Source of the DNA: an uncultured Granulosicoccaceae bacterium
Lineage (GTDB): Bacteria > Pseudomonadota > Gammaproteobacteria > Granulosicoccales > Granulosicoccaceae
Length of the DNA: 36,355 nt
Direction of reading: 5' to 3'
Assembly (NCBI GenBank): GCA_938028465.1
Contig: CALJAA010000070.1
Coordinates: 1 to 36,355 of the forward strand
In this document: positions 30,847 through 36,355 of the stretch, in pieces
How the letters are laid out: every line of letters begins with the position of its first letter
Position numbering within the stretch: the first letter of the stretch is position 1
The notes under the pieces: model-generated
Seen by the model: the letters and a program-made list of their open reading frames with translations, nothing else
Told to the model about the DNA's origin: nothing
Database searches by the model: none
Translations under genes and position numbers: made by a program

Positions 30847-31068
30847 TTGGTTTTACCTCAATAAAACGGAGATAGAAAAAGGTCACTACTGAAACCGGAT
30901 TCGACTCGGCCAGATGCGAGTTTCTTTCTCCGTACAAAAACAATACCAGGGAGTGACAAAGGCAAAAAAGATTGATAGACAAAACAGTGTTTATCCATTG
31001 CTTAGTGCGATTTGCCATAGCATTCACACATGGGGTGCGTGCAAAAATGCTTTTTGGTATTTGTCGCA

Positions 31069-34000
31069 ATGATGATTGAAGCACATCAAGATGGTCGAGT
31101 AGTTCTCTGCAAAGATCAGTTGAAATCACTGCGACGTCGCGTGGGCGCCAGTCAGGAAAAGGTCGCGTTTTTATGTGCAGAACAAGGCCTATGTGTATCG
31201 ATTGCCTCTTTAAAACGCGCCGAAACTAGCAAAAACGTACTGTATCGCACGGCTCGTGACTTAGCTCGATTTTACGAAGTCACAGTAGAGCAGCTTTGCG
31301 GCGCAGGCAACCACTCCGACAGTTCAGTCGTACCACCCTCTGCGCAATCAAATACCCACCCCGCACACACAATGGCAGTACAGCGCAACTTTGTTTTATT
31401 CTGTTGCGAGCAGGCTGAGGTTAATTTTTCACTGGCCAAAGAAGGTGCAGGGTTTGAGTCAATTCTTAGCCATATTGCACCTCAATATAATGCCGAACCT
31501 ATACCCTCTGACAATCAGAGTGTGTACTACTCCTTTGGTGCAAGTCACACGCATGCCAATGAGGCACAACGTGCCATTGGTTTTGCGAATCGCTGTTTAC
31601 AAATATTTTTCTCTCTTTGGGGCACCTCCGAAGTCGTTAGATTGGGGCTTTGTGTAGGGAGACTAACGTCGCCAGAAAATGAGTTGGCGATCGATACAAA
31701 TCATATCAATTCCAATATAGACCCGTTGATGTTGGCCGCTACACCGGGAAAGGTCACGATCAGTGAAGAACTACTGTTTGCTGCTGGTGATAACCCTATT
31801 CCGCTTAAAGGTGAAGCGACCGACAGTACCTTCTGGGTGCTAAGCGATAACGATCGGTCAGAGAGTCGTGAATATTCTCCAATCATTGGTCGCAGGGTTG
31901 AAATTACATTATTTAAAGCGGTCCTCGAGTCCGCTAAAGAATATGAATCGTTGCAGCTGGTCCACTTATTAGGTAATGCTGGAATTGGTAAAAGTCGCCT
32001 TGCGGAGGAATTCGTTCGAGTAGCATCGCTGGACGGATTTTCCTGCCACACAACCAATATGATGGATTTTCAAGTTGAGCAAAAAAAGCTAACGGTTCCC
32101 AAATTGTTAAGTTCACTGCTAGGCATTAGCGACTCAGAATCGAACCTATCACTGGATGAAATCAACTCTCGTAATGAGCTTTTGATTCTCCAGGAAACAA
32201 CGCACTTACCATTGTTGTATTCACTATTAAACTGGAAGATAAGTAAACGGTGGGAATCGTTGTTTGCGGCAATGTCCCCGGAGAAAATTTTTGAGTACCA
32301 ATGCCATCTGATTTCGCGAATTATAGAAATGAAAGCAATGGTTTCTCCCATCTTGATCGTTGTAGAAGATTATCATTGGTCTCAAAATACGGAGAGAGCT
32401 TACATTGAATCGATGATGAGCAACCTTGTTAGCGATTCAGTAGTTCTGCTTATCACAACCCGTCCCGGGGATGCCAGCGAATCAGTGGTGCTGTCAAGCG
32501 AGGCAAGCGGTGCTTCCGTTACCAATATCAGTTTAGGCCCGCTCTCCAGAATTGACGCTCAAAATTTTGCTGAGCATATTTCTGGTATCGACGAAGGTTA
32601 CCGTGACAAATGTATCGCTAAAGCTCAGGGCAATCCGCTGTTTCTGGAACAACTACTGAGGGAGCGGCGTGGCAGCGTACGTGATGGACTGCCGTATTCT
32701 TTGCAGAGCCTGATTGTTTCACGCATCGATGATATGCCACTGGAGGATCAGCTAGCAGTACGAACAGCGTCTGTCATTGGGCATCGTTTTACATTGGGAA
32801 TACTGCGCAGACTGCTGGATCAACCTGACTACGATCCTGCACTTCTCGTTTCCAGCAACATAATTAACGGAGACAATGATAATTATTCATTCAATCACGC
32901 CTTGATTGTTGAAGGGATATACCAATCTATTTCCGAGGAGGATCAGCGTAAGCTGCATTATCAATGCGCCCAATGTTATACCGACGATATTGTTATGCAA
33001 TGCCAGCACCTGTTAAAGGCGCAACATCCCAAAGTAATCGACAAACTTATTCCAGCCATTCGATTTCTAATCAGGGGTTATAACTTTGAGCGCGCGAAAG
33101 ACTTTGTAGAAATTGCACTGAATTTCCCTGACAATCAGGCTGCACAACTGGTGCTATATGAGTTACGGGCCGATGTGAACAGCCGCACCGGCAACATAGC
33201 AGAGGCGCTCTCCTCCTATGAAATGATGTATCAACAGGCAATCACGGCAGAGGAAAAAGCGAATGCACTAATTGGAAAAGCCAATTGTCTGAATACGCTT
33301 GATCAGTTTGAGCGGGCAATGGAGACGCTTATAGAGGCTGAAGATATAGCGAGTAAATCGAAGCTTTTGCACCAATTGTCCAGCGTTCACTACCTTAGAG
33401 GAAATTTTTTGTTCCCAAAAGGACAGTCACAGGATTGTATAGAAGCGCAGGAAAAAGCCTTATATTTTGCCCGGAAAGCATCTGCGCCTGAACTCGAAGC
33501 TCGCTCTCTAGGAGGTCTGGGGGACGCCGCCTATATGAGTGGAAAAATGGTAACCGCTTATGAGTACTTTAAACAGTGCCTGGCCCTGTGTGATAAACAT
33601 GACTTAAAAGCAGTGTCTGCAGCGAACATGTTCATGATGGGCACAGTACGAATTTATCTTAACGAAAATGAGCAAGCACTTACCGATGTCGAACGATCAA
33701 TATCTACAGCGCAGCTTGTCGGCCATAAGCGCGCGGAAATTGTATCCCGTTTAACTGCATCCTGGATTCTTGCAGATTCATTGCGAGTAGTTGAAGCTGA
33801 ATCTCATATCGATCTCGCGATGGAGATCGCTATTGATATTGGCGCTCAAAGATTTGTTCCCTTTTTACGAGAATGCAGAAGCCGTTGTTTGTGGCTGTCC
33901 GGAAACAAAGATGAGGCTGCCGTGTCAATAAAAAAAGCCCTTGTCGAGGTCGAGGAATTAAACGCTCAGGCTTTTATCGGCCCCTGGGTTCTGGGAACCT

Positions 34001-34356
34001 GCGCTCTGCTGTCAAATTCAGCAGAGGAGGCACAAGAGTACCTAGCTCGTGCGGATGTAATAATAGAAGGCGGTTGCGTGGGCCATAATTACTATCGCTT
34101 TTATATGGAGGCACTCGAAACTTCCGTTATTCATAGGGACTATAAACGCGCAAATCATTACCTGGAAATTTTTCGTGACTTTGCTAAAAACGAGCCTTGC
34201 CCATGGTCTGATTTTTACCTAAAACGAGGTGAACTATTATTGGCTAGCGATGATTTAGAGAGTAAGAATAACGACATTTTAAGCCTAATTGATACCGCAA
34301 AATCTATCCAGTTGCTTTCTGCCATACCATTACTGGAAAGCGCCCTGAATGACTGA
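31069..34356 (+). CDS. Large regulator: XRE-type HTH, degenerate cyclase domain, AAA ATPase and TPR repeats
   Basis: This multidomain protein has about 1,095 residues; the start could be 31030, 31069 or 31072, none with a good ribosome binding site. Numbering here is from 31030. Residues 25-92 form an XRE-like HTH (LKSLRRRVGASQEKVAFLCA). Residues about 117-270 follow the class III cyclase pattern (NFVLFCCEQ; VYYSFGASHTHANEAQRAIGFA), but the metal Asp residues are gone, so it should be inactive. An AAA_16-type ATPase follows with Walker A GNAGIGKS (315-322) and a Walker-B-like LIVVEDYHW. The C-terminal 400 or so residues are TPR-like repeats. The design matches COG3899/MalT-like signal-integrating ATPases. 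It is divergent from the Tat oxidoreductase gene. Confidence 0.8.
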   Translation: MMIEAHQDGRVVLCKDQLKSLRRRVGASQEKVAFLCAEQGLCVSIASLKRAETSKNVLYRTARDLARFYEVTVEQLCGAGNHSDSSVVPPSAQSNTHPAHTMAVQRNFVLFCCEQAEVNFSLAKEGAGFESILSHIAPQYNAEPIPSDNQSVYYSFGASHTHANEAQRAIGFANRCLQIFFSLWGTSEVVRLGLCVGRLTSPENELAIDTNHINSNIDPLMLAATPGKVTISEELLFAAGDNPIPLKGEATDSTFWVLSDNDRSESREYSPIIGRRVEITLFKAVLESAKEYESLQLVHLLGNAGIGKSRLAEEFVRVASLDGFSCHTTNMMDFQVEQKKLTVPKLLSSLLGISDSESNLSLDEINSRNELLILQETTHLPLLYSLLNWKISKRWESLFAAMSPEKIFEYQCHLISRIIEMKAMVSPILIVVEDYHWSQNTERAYIESMMSNLVSDSVVLLITTRPGDASESVVLSSEASGASVTNISLGPLSRIDAQNFAEHISGIDEGYRDKCIAKAQGNPLFLEQLLRERRGSVRDGLPYSLQSLIVSRIDDMPLEDQLAVRTASVIGHRFTLGILRRLLDQPDYDPALLVSSNIINGDNDNYSFNHALIVEGIYQSISEEDQRKLHYQCAQCYTDDIVMQCQHLLKAQHPKVIDKLIPAIRFLIRGYNFERAKDFVEIALNFPDNQAAQLVLYELRADVNSRTGNIAEALSSYEMMYQQAITAEEKANALIGKANCLNTLDQFERAMETLIEAEDIASKSKLLHQLSSVHYLRGNFLFPKGQSQDCIEAQEKALYFARKASAPELEARSLGGLGDAAYMSGKMVTAYEYFKQCLALCDKHDLKAVSAANMFMMGTVRIYLNENEQALTDVERSISTAQLVGHKRAEIVSRLTASWILADSLRVVEAESHIDLAMEIAIDIGAQRFVPFLRECRSRCLWLSGNKDEAAVSIKKALVEVEELNAQAFIGPWVLGTCALLSNSAEEAQEYLARADVIIEGGCVGHNYYRFYMEALETSVIHRDYKRANHYLEIFRDFAKNEPCPWSDFYLKRGELLLASDDLESKNNDILSLIDTAKSIQLLSAIPLLESALND

Positions 34357-34514: not shown

Positions 34515-35243
34515 ATGCCAGAAAGTAAAAGAATAGCTCTTCTTATCGACTGCGATAATGTAAGTCATCATTCCATAGAAGGAGTGCTGGAGGAGCTGGC
34601 CAAATACGGGGTGGTTAATGTTCGACATGCCCATGGAGATTGGAAAAATCCATCCTTGGCTGGCTGGACCAGCAGGTTGCACCCTCATGCGATAAGGCCA
34701 ATGCAACAATTTGCCTATACAAAAGGTAAAAATGCTACCGACTCAGCAATGATCATCGATGCAATGGATCTCCTTTATAGCAAAAATATTGATGCCTTTG
34801 CACTTATGACGAGCGACTCTGATTTCACACCTCTCGTACTTAGAATTCACGAAAGCGGAATGCCGGTTTACGGATTTGGCGCAATGAAGACGCCTAAACC
34901 ATTCGTAGATGCATGCTCCCCTTTTATCTATACAGAAAACCTTGTCCTTGAAGAAGACGATAAATCAAAAACTGACTCAAAGCCTGAGAAGCAAGGTCGA
35001 AACAAATTAAGAGGCGACACAGCGCTTATAAAGCTACTTAGAACCGCGGTCGAGCAAACTTCAGATGATGACAATTGGGCTCAATTAGGTAGTGTTGGCA
35101 GCTATATTTCTAACAACAGCTCATTTTCAACCATCAACTACGGTTACAAAAAGCTTGGCGACCTAATAAAAGCAACCGAACTATTTGAAGTCGAAATGCG
35201 AAATAGCGGCACATCGATGTGTATCAAAGATACCCGCAAGTAA
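34515..35243 (+). CDS. NYN-domain RNase-like protein with C-terminal OST-HTH/LOTUS domain
   Basis: The 242-residue protein has an N-terminal NYN (PIN-like) domain: Asp12 and Asp14 in ALLIDCDNV, Asp76 in KGKNATDSAMIIDAMDLL, and Asp101/Asp103 in MTSDSDFTPLV. These acidic residues form the metal site of PIN-type nucleases, so it is likely active. Residues about 163-240 form an OST-HTH/LOTUS domain (RGDTALIKLLRTAVEQ; WAQLGSVGSYI; YGYKKLGDLIKATELFEVE), thought to bind RNA. This LabA-like combination is widespread but little understood in bacteria. An AGGAGAGG ribosome binding site precedes the ATG. It follows the large regulator by about 160 bases. Confidence 0.88.
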   Translation: MPESKRIALLIDCDNVSHHSIEGVLEELAKYGVVNVRHAHGDWKNPSLAGWTSRLHPHAIRPMQQFAYTKGKNATDSAMIIDAMDLLYSKNIDAFALMTSDSDFTPLVLRIHESGMPVYGFGAMKTPKPFVDACSPFIYTENLVLEEDDKSKTDSKPEKQGRNKLRGDTALIKLLRTAVEQTSDDDNWAQLGSVGSYISNNSSFSTINYGYKKLGDLIKATELFEVEMRNSGTSMCIKDTRK

Positions 35244-35811: not shown

Positions 35812-35903
35812 CACTCAATGCCGATTGGCAAAACCATCGAAAGGTGGTGACGCAAAGCTTCCGGTCTAAGGGACAACTGTCCTACGATAGCGGGGCCGCC
35901 AGA
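35812..35903 (+). ncRNA. Cyclic di-GMP-I riboswitch aptamer (GEMM), copy 1
   Basis: The segment carries the GEMM-I core: GGCAAAACC (35827), stem ACCATC/GGTGGT closed by a GAAA tetraloop (35839-35842), GACGCAAAGC (35849-35858), CCGGTCTAA, a variable stem GGAC/GTCC, and GATAGCGGGG (35886-35895). The tetraloop and the AGCGGGG segment are its receptor pair in the known structure. This RNA class binds the second messenger c-di-GMP and controls the downstream gene. No coding gene follows within the window, only further aptamer-like units, so the target lies beyond 36355. Confidence 0.9.
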
Positions 35904-36052
35904 TACACACTCGTGTATCTGTACTTACAATACGCAGTCACGCGTATTGTCGGCTGGCGGCCGCTCGTCTATCGGAAGCTGTTAAATACGGACTCCTATA
36001 AGCCTACTCATAGGCTTGACGGCGGTGCAAAACGCCAGCAGCTTACCTAAAC
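35894..36052 (+). ncRNA. Structured spacer after riboswitch 1 (candidate expression platform)
   Basis: Perfect local hairpins are AGATACAC/GTGTATCT (35901-35920), CAATACGC/GCGTATTG (35928-35949) and AAGCCTA/TAGGCTT (36000-36017). In addition GGCCGCCAG (35894-35902), the 3' edge of aptamer 1, is exactly complementary to CTGGCGGCC (35954-35962). Pairing there would enclose two hairpins and compete with the aptamer end, as expected for a switching element. None of the hairpins is followed by a clear T-run. Confidence 0.6.
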
Positions 36053-36084
36053 AGTTTGCAGTTGAACGCAAAGCACCCAAGGAA

Positions 36085-36163
36085 ATAGCAAAACTGTCTT
36101 AAGATGGTGGCGCTATAGCTTCCCGGTTTTGTGGATTTCGATCCTAAGATCTCAGAGCGCCCA
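36085..36163 (+). ncRNA. Degenerate third copy of the c-di-GMP-I riboswitch
   Basis: Aligned with copy 2, this segment keeps AGCAAAAC, a wobble-rich stem ACTGTC/GATGGT with a TTAA loop, the TAGCTTCCCGGT region and an identical GGATTTCGATCCTA stem-loop. It has lost the GACGCAAAGC core (now GGCGCTATAGC) and the AGCGGGG receptor (now TCTCAGAG). It looks like a decayed duplicate unlikely to bind c-di-GMP. Confidence 0.6.
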
Positions 36164-36239
36164 CGTGCTAGCGTACCGAAATGGTTTCTAACTCTGTGCA
36201 GGCCTCCCTATCTGAATCGTTATCCTCCGGTTAGCAAAT

Positions 36240-36325
36240 TGATGCTGTTGGCAAAACCATCGAAAGATGGTGACGCAAAGCTTCCGGTCTAACGGATTTC
36301 GATCCTATGATAGCGGGGCCGCCGA
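36240..36325 (+). ncRNA. Cyclic di-GMP-I riboswitch aptamer (GEMM), copy 2
   Basis: The same core as copy 1 is present: GGCAAAACC (36250), stem ACCATC/GATGGT with GAAA loop (36256-36271), GACGCAAAGC (36272-36281), CCGGTCTAA, variable stem GGAT/ATCC closed by TTCG, and GATAGCGGGG (36309-36318). The variable stem differs from copy 1 by a compensatory pair change, which supports a functional RNA. The controlled gene and its expression platform lie to the right of the window. Confidence 0.9.
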
Positions 36326-36355
36326 AATTAATGTAGCGAGAGCTATATTAGTGGG

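Follow-up and report, generated by a model that had tools for sequence, protein, structure and literature searches.

A probable two-step c-di-GMP switch with a decayed third aptamer upstream of a pilin-like gene in an uncultured Granulosicoccaceae bacterium

In this study, we analysed a 36,355-nucleotide stretch of DNA (the window), which makes up all of contig C70, one of 223 contigs in a draft genome of 4.1 Mb. Its right edge is likely the 5′ leader of a pilin mRNA that carries two intact c-di-GMP-I aptamers and a decayed third and works as a two-step c-di-GMP switch, probably in the ON direction. The observation made in the original prediction is real and its interpretation was essentially right. 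Taken alone, the window is of moderate interest; the loci found in sister genera are more surprising and offer a lead for specialist testing.

Two intact aptamers and the gene downstream

The Rfam covariance model RF01051 (gathering cut-off 35 bits) was run over the region and gave two matches above the gathering score on the plus strand (Table 1). Both were full length (1-87 of 87), with E-values of 8.4e-14 for copy 1 and 2.6e-14 for the last copy, and their starts were 423 nt apart, which bears out the predicted pair of GEMM-I aptamers on one strand. The two copies were 89% identical over a 76-nt core. The predicted stem differences are present in the sequence, with GGAC/GTCC versus GGAT/ATCC in the variable stem, and the stem capped by GAAA has T-G in one copy where the other has T-A. 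Among six strong copies from three genomes, the window's genome (G000) and two listed in the same genus (G001 and G004), 4 of 22 pairs were altered on both sides and still paired (shuffle mean 0.6; 1 of 500 shuffles reached 4). Residues G20, A47 and C92, numbered from the Vc2 structure, are taken here to be the ligand contacts. Copy 1 kept the residues aligned to all three together with the GAAA loop and 33 of 36 upper-case consensus positions, and the last copy kept the contact residues, the loop and 32 of 36 positions; the contact residues are identical in both copies and of c-di-GMP type.

Table 1. Features located at the right edge of the window
Feature	Position	Strand	Basis or remark
NYN + OST-HTH/LOTUS domain protein gene	34515..35243	+	Pfam NYN 5.1e-35, OST-HTH 8.1e-14
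c-di-GMP-I aptamer, copy 1 (strong)	35817..35903	+	RF01051 77.7 bits
Predicted competing (anti-aptamer) helix	35884..35975	+	Aptamer 1 3′ strand 35884-35903 with 35953-35975, two hairpins enclosed
Vestigial c-di-GMP-I aptamer (middle)	36077..36164	+	RF01051 24.0 bits
c-di-GMP-I aptamer, last copy (strong), closest to the gene	36240..36326	+	RF01051 79.8 bits
Leader start toward the pilin gene, hairpin directly 3′ of the aptamer	36327..36355	+	Runs on into contig C81

The NYN + OST-HTH/LOTUS gene lies 573 nt upstream of aptamer 1 and is not thought to be part of the riboswitch-pilin unit. Beside it, positions 31030-34356 encode a 1108-aa protein with AAA_16 and TPR matches and with partial similarity to kinase/cyclase fusion regulators (TIGR03903, far under its cut-off).

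The window ends 29 nt past the last aptamer. Read on its reverse strand, contig C81 opens with an exact copy of the final 141 bases of the window, an overlap apparently of the kind that some assemblers leave at a branch. From this exact overlap, backed by the same order in two relatives, we infer that C70 and C81 join. The plus-strand gene that had been predicted beyond the window is then found on C81, where an ORF of 170 aa (L025 9589-9077, minus strand of L025) begins 162 nt after the last aptamer on the same strand as the aptamers. A break of the assembly at the aptamer possibly reflects another copy or a strain variant. Contigs of the window's genome (window/C81) and of G029 (L028/L029) break at c-di-GMP-I aptamers, and the real arrays may be longer. 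At the far end of C81, L025 1-3483 is a large ORF with an open end, in which glycine-rich stretches and repeats rich in Asp were seen by eye.

Judged by eye, the 170-aa ORF has a signal-peptide-like start and a plausible ribosome site upstream, and its product is likely secreted. The protein was named by no Pfam or NCBIfam family, and a PDB profile search gave only chance-level matches. Its sequence relationships suggest kinship with subunits of a TcfC/TcfA-type pilus. It was 44% and 37% identical to its relatives in G001 and G004, respectively, and weakly related to another pilin-like subunit (32.7%, E 3e-7). In G004 the pilin is followed by an usher (TcfC domain, 1.7e-12), a PapD-type chaperone (PapD_N; TcfA-like) and more pilin-like genes, and is weakly related to the neighbouring subunit (24.6%, E 1e-7). 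In G001 the pilin comes after chaperone and pilin-like genes, and the usher is cut by the contig end. Since the usher match of the window's genome sits on a different contig, C28, it is the pilin, and not the pilus cluster, that the array accompanies. At E 1e-10, a profile of the three pilins run over the order's 48 genomes matched G000, G001 and G004 and no other, and RF01051 was found in the same three of the 27 genomes of the genus; by our own arithmetic, the chance of hitting the same three of 27 independently is 1 in 2925, kinship ignored.

Leader architecture, alternatives and the middle copy

Downstream of copy 1, a long helix is predicted that would compete for the 3′ strand of the aptamer (Table 1). 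The duplex was modelled at -32.4 kcal/mol, which 0 of 300 shuffles equalled, and the first copies of G001 and G004 gave predicted values of -29.1 and -25.5 kcal/mol (1 of 300 shuffles as good in each); the partner strand lies about 50 nt downstream of the first aptamer in all three genomes. For the last copies, no partner stood out within 110 nt (269, 246 and 121 of 300 shuffles as good in G000, G001 and G004). A competing helix thus follows the first copy in three of three genomes and the last copy in none, which gives the two strong switches an unequal appearance.

No U-run follows the competing helix of copy 1, and no sense-strand terminator-like site was found after the window aptamers; terminator-based expression platforms were rejected. 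Upstream of the array, no promoter-like site beyond chance was detected. In the fold model, part of the ribosome site at the pilin start was paired in G000 and most of it in G001, and enforcing the last aptamer left this pairing unchanged in both. Because no promoter-like site beyond chance and no sense-strand terminator-like site was found and the modelled ribosome-site pairing does not depend on the aptamer, the expression platforms are putative, and effects of Rho, RNase or folding may be involved.

In the proposed mechanism, c-di-GMP rising with surface life would be bound by both strong aptamers. At copy 1, binding would prevent the long helix that otherwise consumes the 3′ strand of the aptamer. 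The last copy, which ends 162 nt ahead of the start codon, would act on the leader beside the ribosome site. Both aptamers would have to be satisfied, so that pilin would be made only at high c-di-GMP, and the tandem arrangement would give a steeper response than a single switch. The ON direction is drawn from the likely role of the pilin and from the architecture of copy 1, and the most likely model appears to be a tandem switch that turns adhesion ON when c-di-GMP is high.

Alternatively, the array could be a stand-alone c-di-GMP-binding RNA with the pilin as a mere neighbour, either like the merRNA of Bdellovibrio, for which the accessible text of PMC3627812 gives a precedent, or like the GGA-hairpin loci described below, since sister genera have copies with no same-strand gene nearby. 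We regard this as unlikely. The array adjoins the same pilin in three of three genomes despite their differing surroundings (in G000 via the contig overlap), so that the missing downstream gene of a merRNA-type orphan is not the situation found here, and the array with its leader held 1 GGA hairpin in 1,239 nt (shuffle mean 2.9). What was found downstream is a gene of the surface, motility or adhesion type that c-di-GMP-I riboswitches lead, namely the pilin-like gene. Read as a pilin leader, the array would connect a chaperone-usher pilus of the TcfC type with c-di-GMP in uncultured relatives of Granulosicoccus.

A third aptamer-like stretch, missed by the original prediction, lies between the two strong copies. 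It scored below the cut-off, with an E-value of 0.02 in a search of 656 bases, and aligned end to end. The position of G20 is changed to A and that of A47 to U, the GAAA loop is gone, and 24 of 36 strongly conserved positions are retained. The region hence consists of three aptamer-derived units, of which the middle one is vestigial. The same three-unit order was found on a single contig in G001 (74.6, 39.1 and 78.3 bits), where the middle copy retains G20, A47 and C92 but not the loop. G004 has two copies with starts 185 nt apart and no RF01051 match between them. The strong copies of the three genomes were 76-87% identical, the last copies of G000 and G001 being the closest at 87%. The first copy of G000 was about equally similar (80-84%) to several strong copies, and the order of the units is only partly mirrored in their similarity. 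The sequence pattern can be read as an array that has long been triple and is now losing its central unit to decay. Since the middle copies of G000 and G001 were 47% identical, nothing shows that the degenerate copy is kept for a purpose.

The two-input control raised in the original prediction found no support, because both strong copies share the same c-di-GMP-type contact residues. In another form of this idea, the middle copy would have been retuned, its change of G20 to A resembling one that favours c-AMP-GMP; we take G20 to be the position that decides between c-di-GMP and c-AMP-GMP. According to the available text of a 2022 survey, a G or an A at one ligand-contacting position sets that preference (PMC9481103). 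Such a device is very improbable, as the middle copy lost more than G20 (A47 and the GAAA loop are also missing, and it scores 24 bits), its counterpart in G001 has a G at this position and shares only 47% identity with it, and in G004 no RF01051 match lies between the two copies. Least credible is that the second copy is an assembly artefact, one repeat placed twice where C70 and C81 both break at the last aptamer, which is largely refuted by two differing copies inside one contig and by two or three copies on single contigs of G001 and G004.

As a two-step pilin leader, the window represents a natural multiplied c-di-GMP riboswitch in which one of three units is decaying and the outer two, which differ in their downstream structures, are retained. 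It may be of use for studying how work is shared among tandem switches and how arrays expand and degenerate.

Aptamers and GGA-loop hairpins in sister genera

Sister genera of the Granulosicoccaceae also carry RF01051, in one to five units and in a setting unlike that of the window. Twelve contigs outside the window's genus were considered; two end too soon and ten were decidable by simple ORF calling. Of genes with a product of at least 150 aa, the closest one downstream was convergent in six of the ten (G035:C44, G035:C70, G027, G064, G058 and G059) and on the same strand in four (G029, G057, G031 and G028, at -7 to 921 nt), a count made for sister genera only. Short same-strand ORFs (83 and 88 aa) precede the convergent gene in two of the six, G035:C70 and G027.

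The largest array, that of G064, packs five strong copies into 2.9 kb ahead of a convergent gene. At this locus (L051 2083-4950; G064:C40 80582-83449) the starts are spaced 571-839 nt apart, GGA-loop hairpins lie near each unit, and the convergent gene after the last one looks adenylate-cyclase/FHA-like by eye. The convergent genes facing the aptamers L031 4891-4982 (G035) and L033 2452-2561 (G027) are alike by eye, suggesting a conserved locus, and the hairpins downstream of these aptamers have diverged. Several copies (L028 7282-7365 and 6379-6462; L029 5137-5220; L051 2084-2169) scored best with the variant family RF03167, c-di-GMP-I-GGC, and not with RF01051.

Directly 3′ of most sister-genus aptamers stand hairpins with GGA in the loop, for example GACAC-AGGAU-GUGUC. 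In minimum-energy folds of the 110 nt downstream, 26 GGA loops were counted in 16 copies outside the window's genus versus 2.7 in shuffles (sd 1.5, maximum 7), and 0 in 8 copies of the window's genus; the 16-copy count was made without the contig-end copy G029b, which is almost identical in sequence to the first G029 copy. From -200 to +110, 15 sister-genus copies held 49 GGA hairpins versus 15.6 in shuffles (sd 3.7), and 7 copies of the window's genus held 3 versus 3.7. Omitted from this second count were G029b (22 nt downstream only), the vestigial G000 copy and the first G029 copy (short upstream), and overlapping GGA sites may count twice, in the shuffles likewise. The hairpins are not a general trait of c-di-GMP-I aptamers, since 23 class copies held 19 versus 19.2 in shuffles; these controls omit 5 of the 28 loci L064-L091 (L065, L067, L084, L087 and L091) for a short flank or an unclear position, and L065 and L067 have one GGA loop each.

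The enrichment was strand specific. In 13 copies from 9 loci with at least 150 nt upstream, 3.6 GGA hairpins per unit were found on the sense strand versus 0.69 on the antisense strand, and the background was 0.62 sense and 0.83 antisense per 310 nt over 221 comparison stretches, one of which has 7 sense hairpins. The stems also covary: in 12 copies, 14 cells were changed on both sides versus 4.8 in shuffles, and 0 of 500 shuffles were as high. Single loci over longer stretches were only moderately enriched, with observed and shuffled numbers of 4 and 2.7 (G058), 4 and 1.9 (G059), 4 and 1.9 (G057), 5 and 2.4 (G035:C44), 9 and 4.3 (G029), 10 and 4.5 (G028), and 22 and 9.6 (G064). Both copies of genus g6 had no GGA hairpin downstream, and G035:C70 and G027 had one each.

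Single or paired aptamers followed by GGA-loop hairpins with covarying stems were seen at L030 5592-5686, L053 7488-7572, L054 2808-2894, L033 2452-2561, L052 5184-5269 and L028 6380-7366, and in four of these six the closest gene that encodes at least 150 aa is convergent. At L032 5685-6575 (G028:C138), the aptamer lies within about 1.1 kb in which ACAGGA motifs recur and the 10 GGA hairpins were counted (shuffle mean 4.5), and a same-strand gene, hydrolase-like by eye, follows 921 nt after the aptamer.

A model of the downstream tails (R1) gave 12 strong matches, which all follow an aptamer and are its own source sequences, and 4 further weak matches (E 0.005-0.009). Tails occurring apart from an aptamer were rejected as a candidate on these strong matches, though R1 was built from them. 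Among 369 class genomes no R1 match was obtained at E 1e-4, an empty result that, lacking a positive control, shows nothing. Two of the seven R1 loci have a same-strand gene, at 359 and 441 nt, so that cis roles for the GGA sites are possible there.

According to the accessible portion of PMC7652899, the sites of CsrA consist of GGA placed in the loop of a hairpin, and their selected consensus is RUACARGGAUGU. CsrA genes were present in 47 of 48 genomes of the order, and many GGA-loop hairpins of the CsrB/RsmZ type were found in the sister-genus loci and not in the window array. Across the 12 loci scanned, the Rfam CsrB/Rsm families all stayed below their cut-offs. When the sequence ahead of the sister-genus copies was scanned with what we took to be the GacA box consensus, the best site had 2 mismatches (upstream of the fourth G064 copy); by our own estimate this single site is within chance, and a GacA box was rejected.

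The sequence evidence suggests that the sister-genus loci may be CsrA-sequestering RNAs with a c-di-GMP sensor. For the Granulosicoccaceae we tentatively propose, as a possibility that we rate just short of even, a tandem cis-switch before a pilin in the window's genus and stand-alone, CsrB/RsmZ-like, c-di-GMP-sensing RNAs that capture CsrA in the sister genera. In the latter, the aptamer would be the sensor domain of RNAs of one to five units, the conserved GGA-loop hairpins would capture CsrA, and c-di-GMP would directly set the amount of free CsrA. If true, this would wire two global lifestyle regulators directly together at the level of RNA, and the crosstalk of c-di-GMP and Csr/Rsm would take a direct RNA form that is testable in vitro with purified components.

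Comparison with known systems

Our literature search, outside which most subscription papers fell, found nothing on Granulosicoccus together with c-di-GMP and nothing joining CsrA, a c-di-GMP riboswitch and a sponge. For a c-di-GMP-I riboswitch paired with a chaperone-usher system, only a review on anti-biofilm agents turned up. One paper that mentions GEMM, c-di-GMP, riboswitch, CsrA and GGA makes no such CsrA link in its accessible text (PMC3971182).

A close precedent for the sister-genus loci is the Bdellovibrio merRNA, a c-di-GMP aptamer without a downstream gene as far as the available text describes it (PMC3627812), which some of these loci may resemble in this respect. The sister-genus loci, as predicted from sequence, differ from it in their GGA-loop hairpins and in having up to five units, and the window array differs in having a downstream gene. 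The sister-genus loci would also resemble RNAs that are described, in the portions at hand, as combining an aptamer with sites for a regulator protein, such as Rli55, a B12-riboswitch RNA of Listeria that sequesters EutV (PMC8079631). Related cases are the CsrA-sequestering RNAs of the CsrB type and the CsrA sites in the Moco riboswitch of moaA (PMC7652899). Since CsrA binds this moaA leader (PMC7652899, same portion), an action of CsrA on a riboswitch is already known.

For the window array, the comparison is with tandem riboswitches. The accessible text of the 2022 survey gives 347 doublets and 12 triplets for c-di-GMP-I, the most of any class (PMC9481103), and that of a 2025 study places c-di-GMP among the classes enriched in tandem (PMC12452182). 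Of the original description of such arrangements as known but uncommon, the first word stands and the second is true only relatively. In our gammaproteobacterial sample, 67 of 369 genomes had RF01051, and under strict filters 3 of the 67 (G000, G101 and G320) had two listed matches within 500 nt. Because tandem c-di-GMP-I riboswitches are well known, as the accessible survey text attests (PMC9481103), the window is a modest variant of them. Like the surveyed tandems, it has two same-class aptamers in one leader, and it differs in the vestigial third between them, in the different architecture after copy 1 and after the last copy, and in that no intrinsic terminators were found.

A degenerate aptamer beside an intact one is also described for glycine riboswitches, as ghost aptamers, in the available survey text (PMC9481103), whereas the degenerate copy of the window has drifted to 47% identity between two genomes. 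The Bc3-5 RNA of Bacillus thuringiensis, a triple-tandem RNA in the cspABCDE leader, shares with the window three aptamer-derived units in one leader. In Bc3-5 all three are complete with a terminator each, as its accessible text describes (PMC4759541), whereas in the window the middle one is decayed, no terminator was found, and the array is thus not three complete aptamers of the Bc3-5 type. Bc3-5 is described there as giving a more stringent, digital ON control than double or single versions (PMC4759541), and by analogy a sharper control by the window tandem would fit this published triple array.
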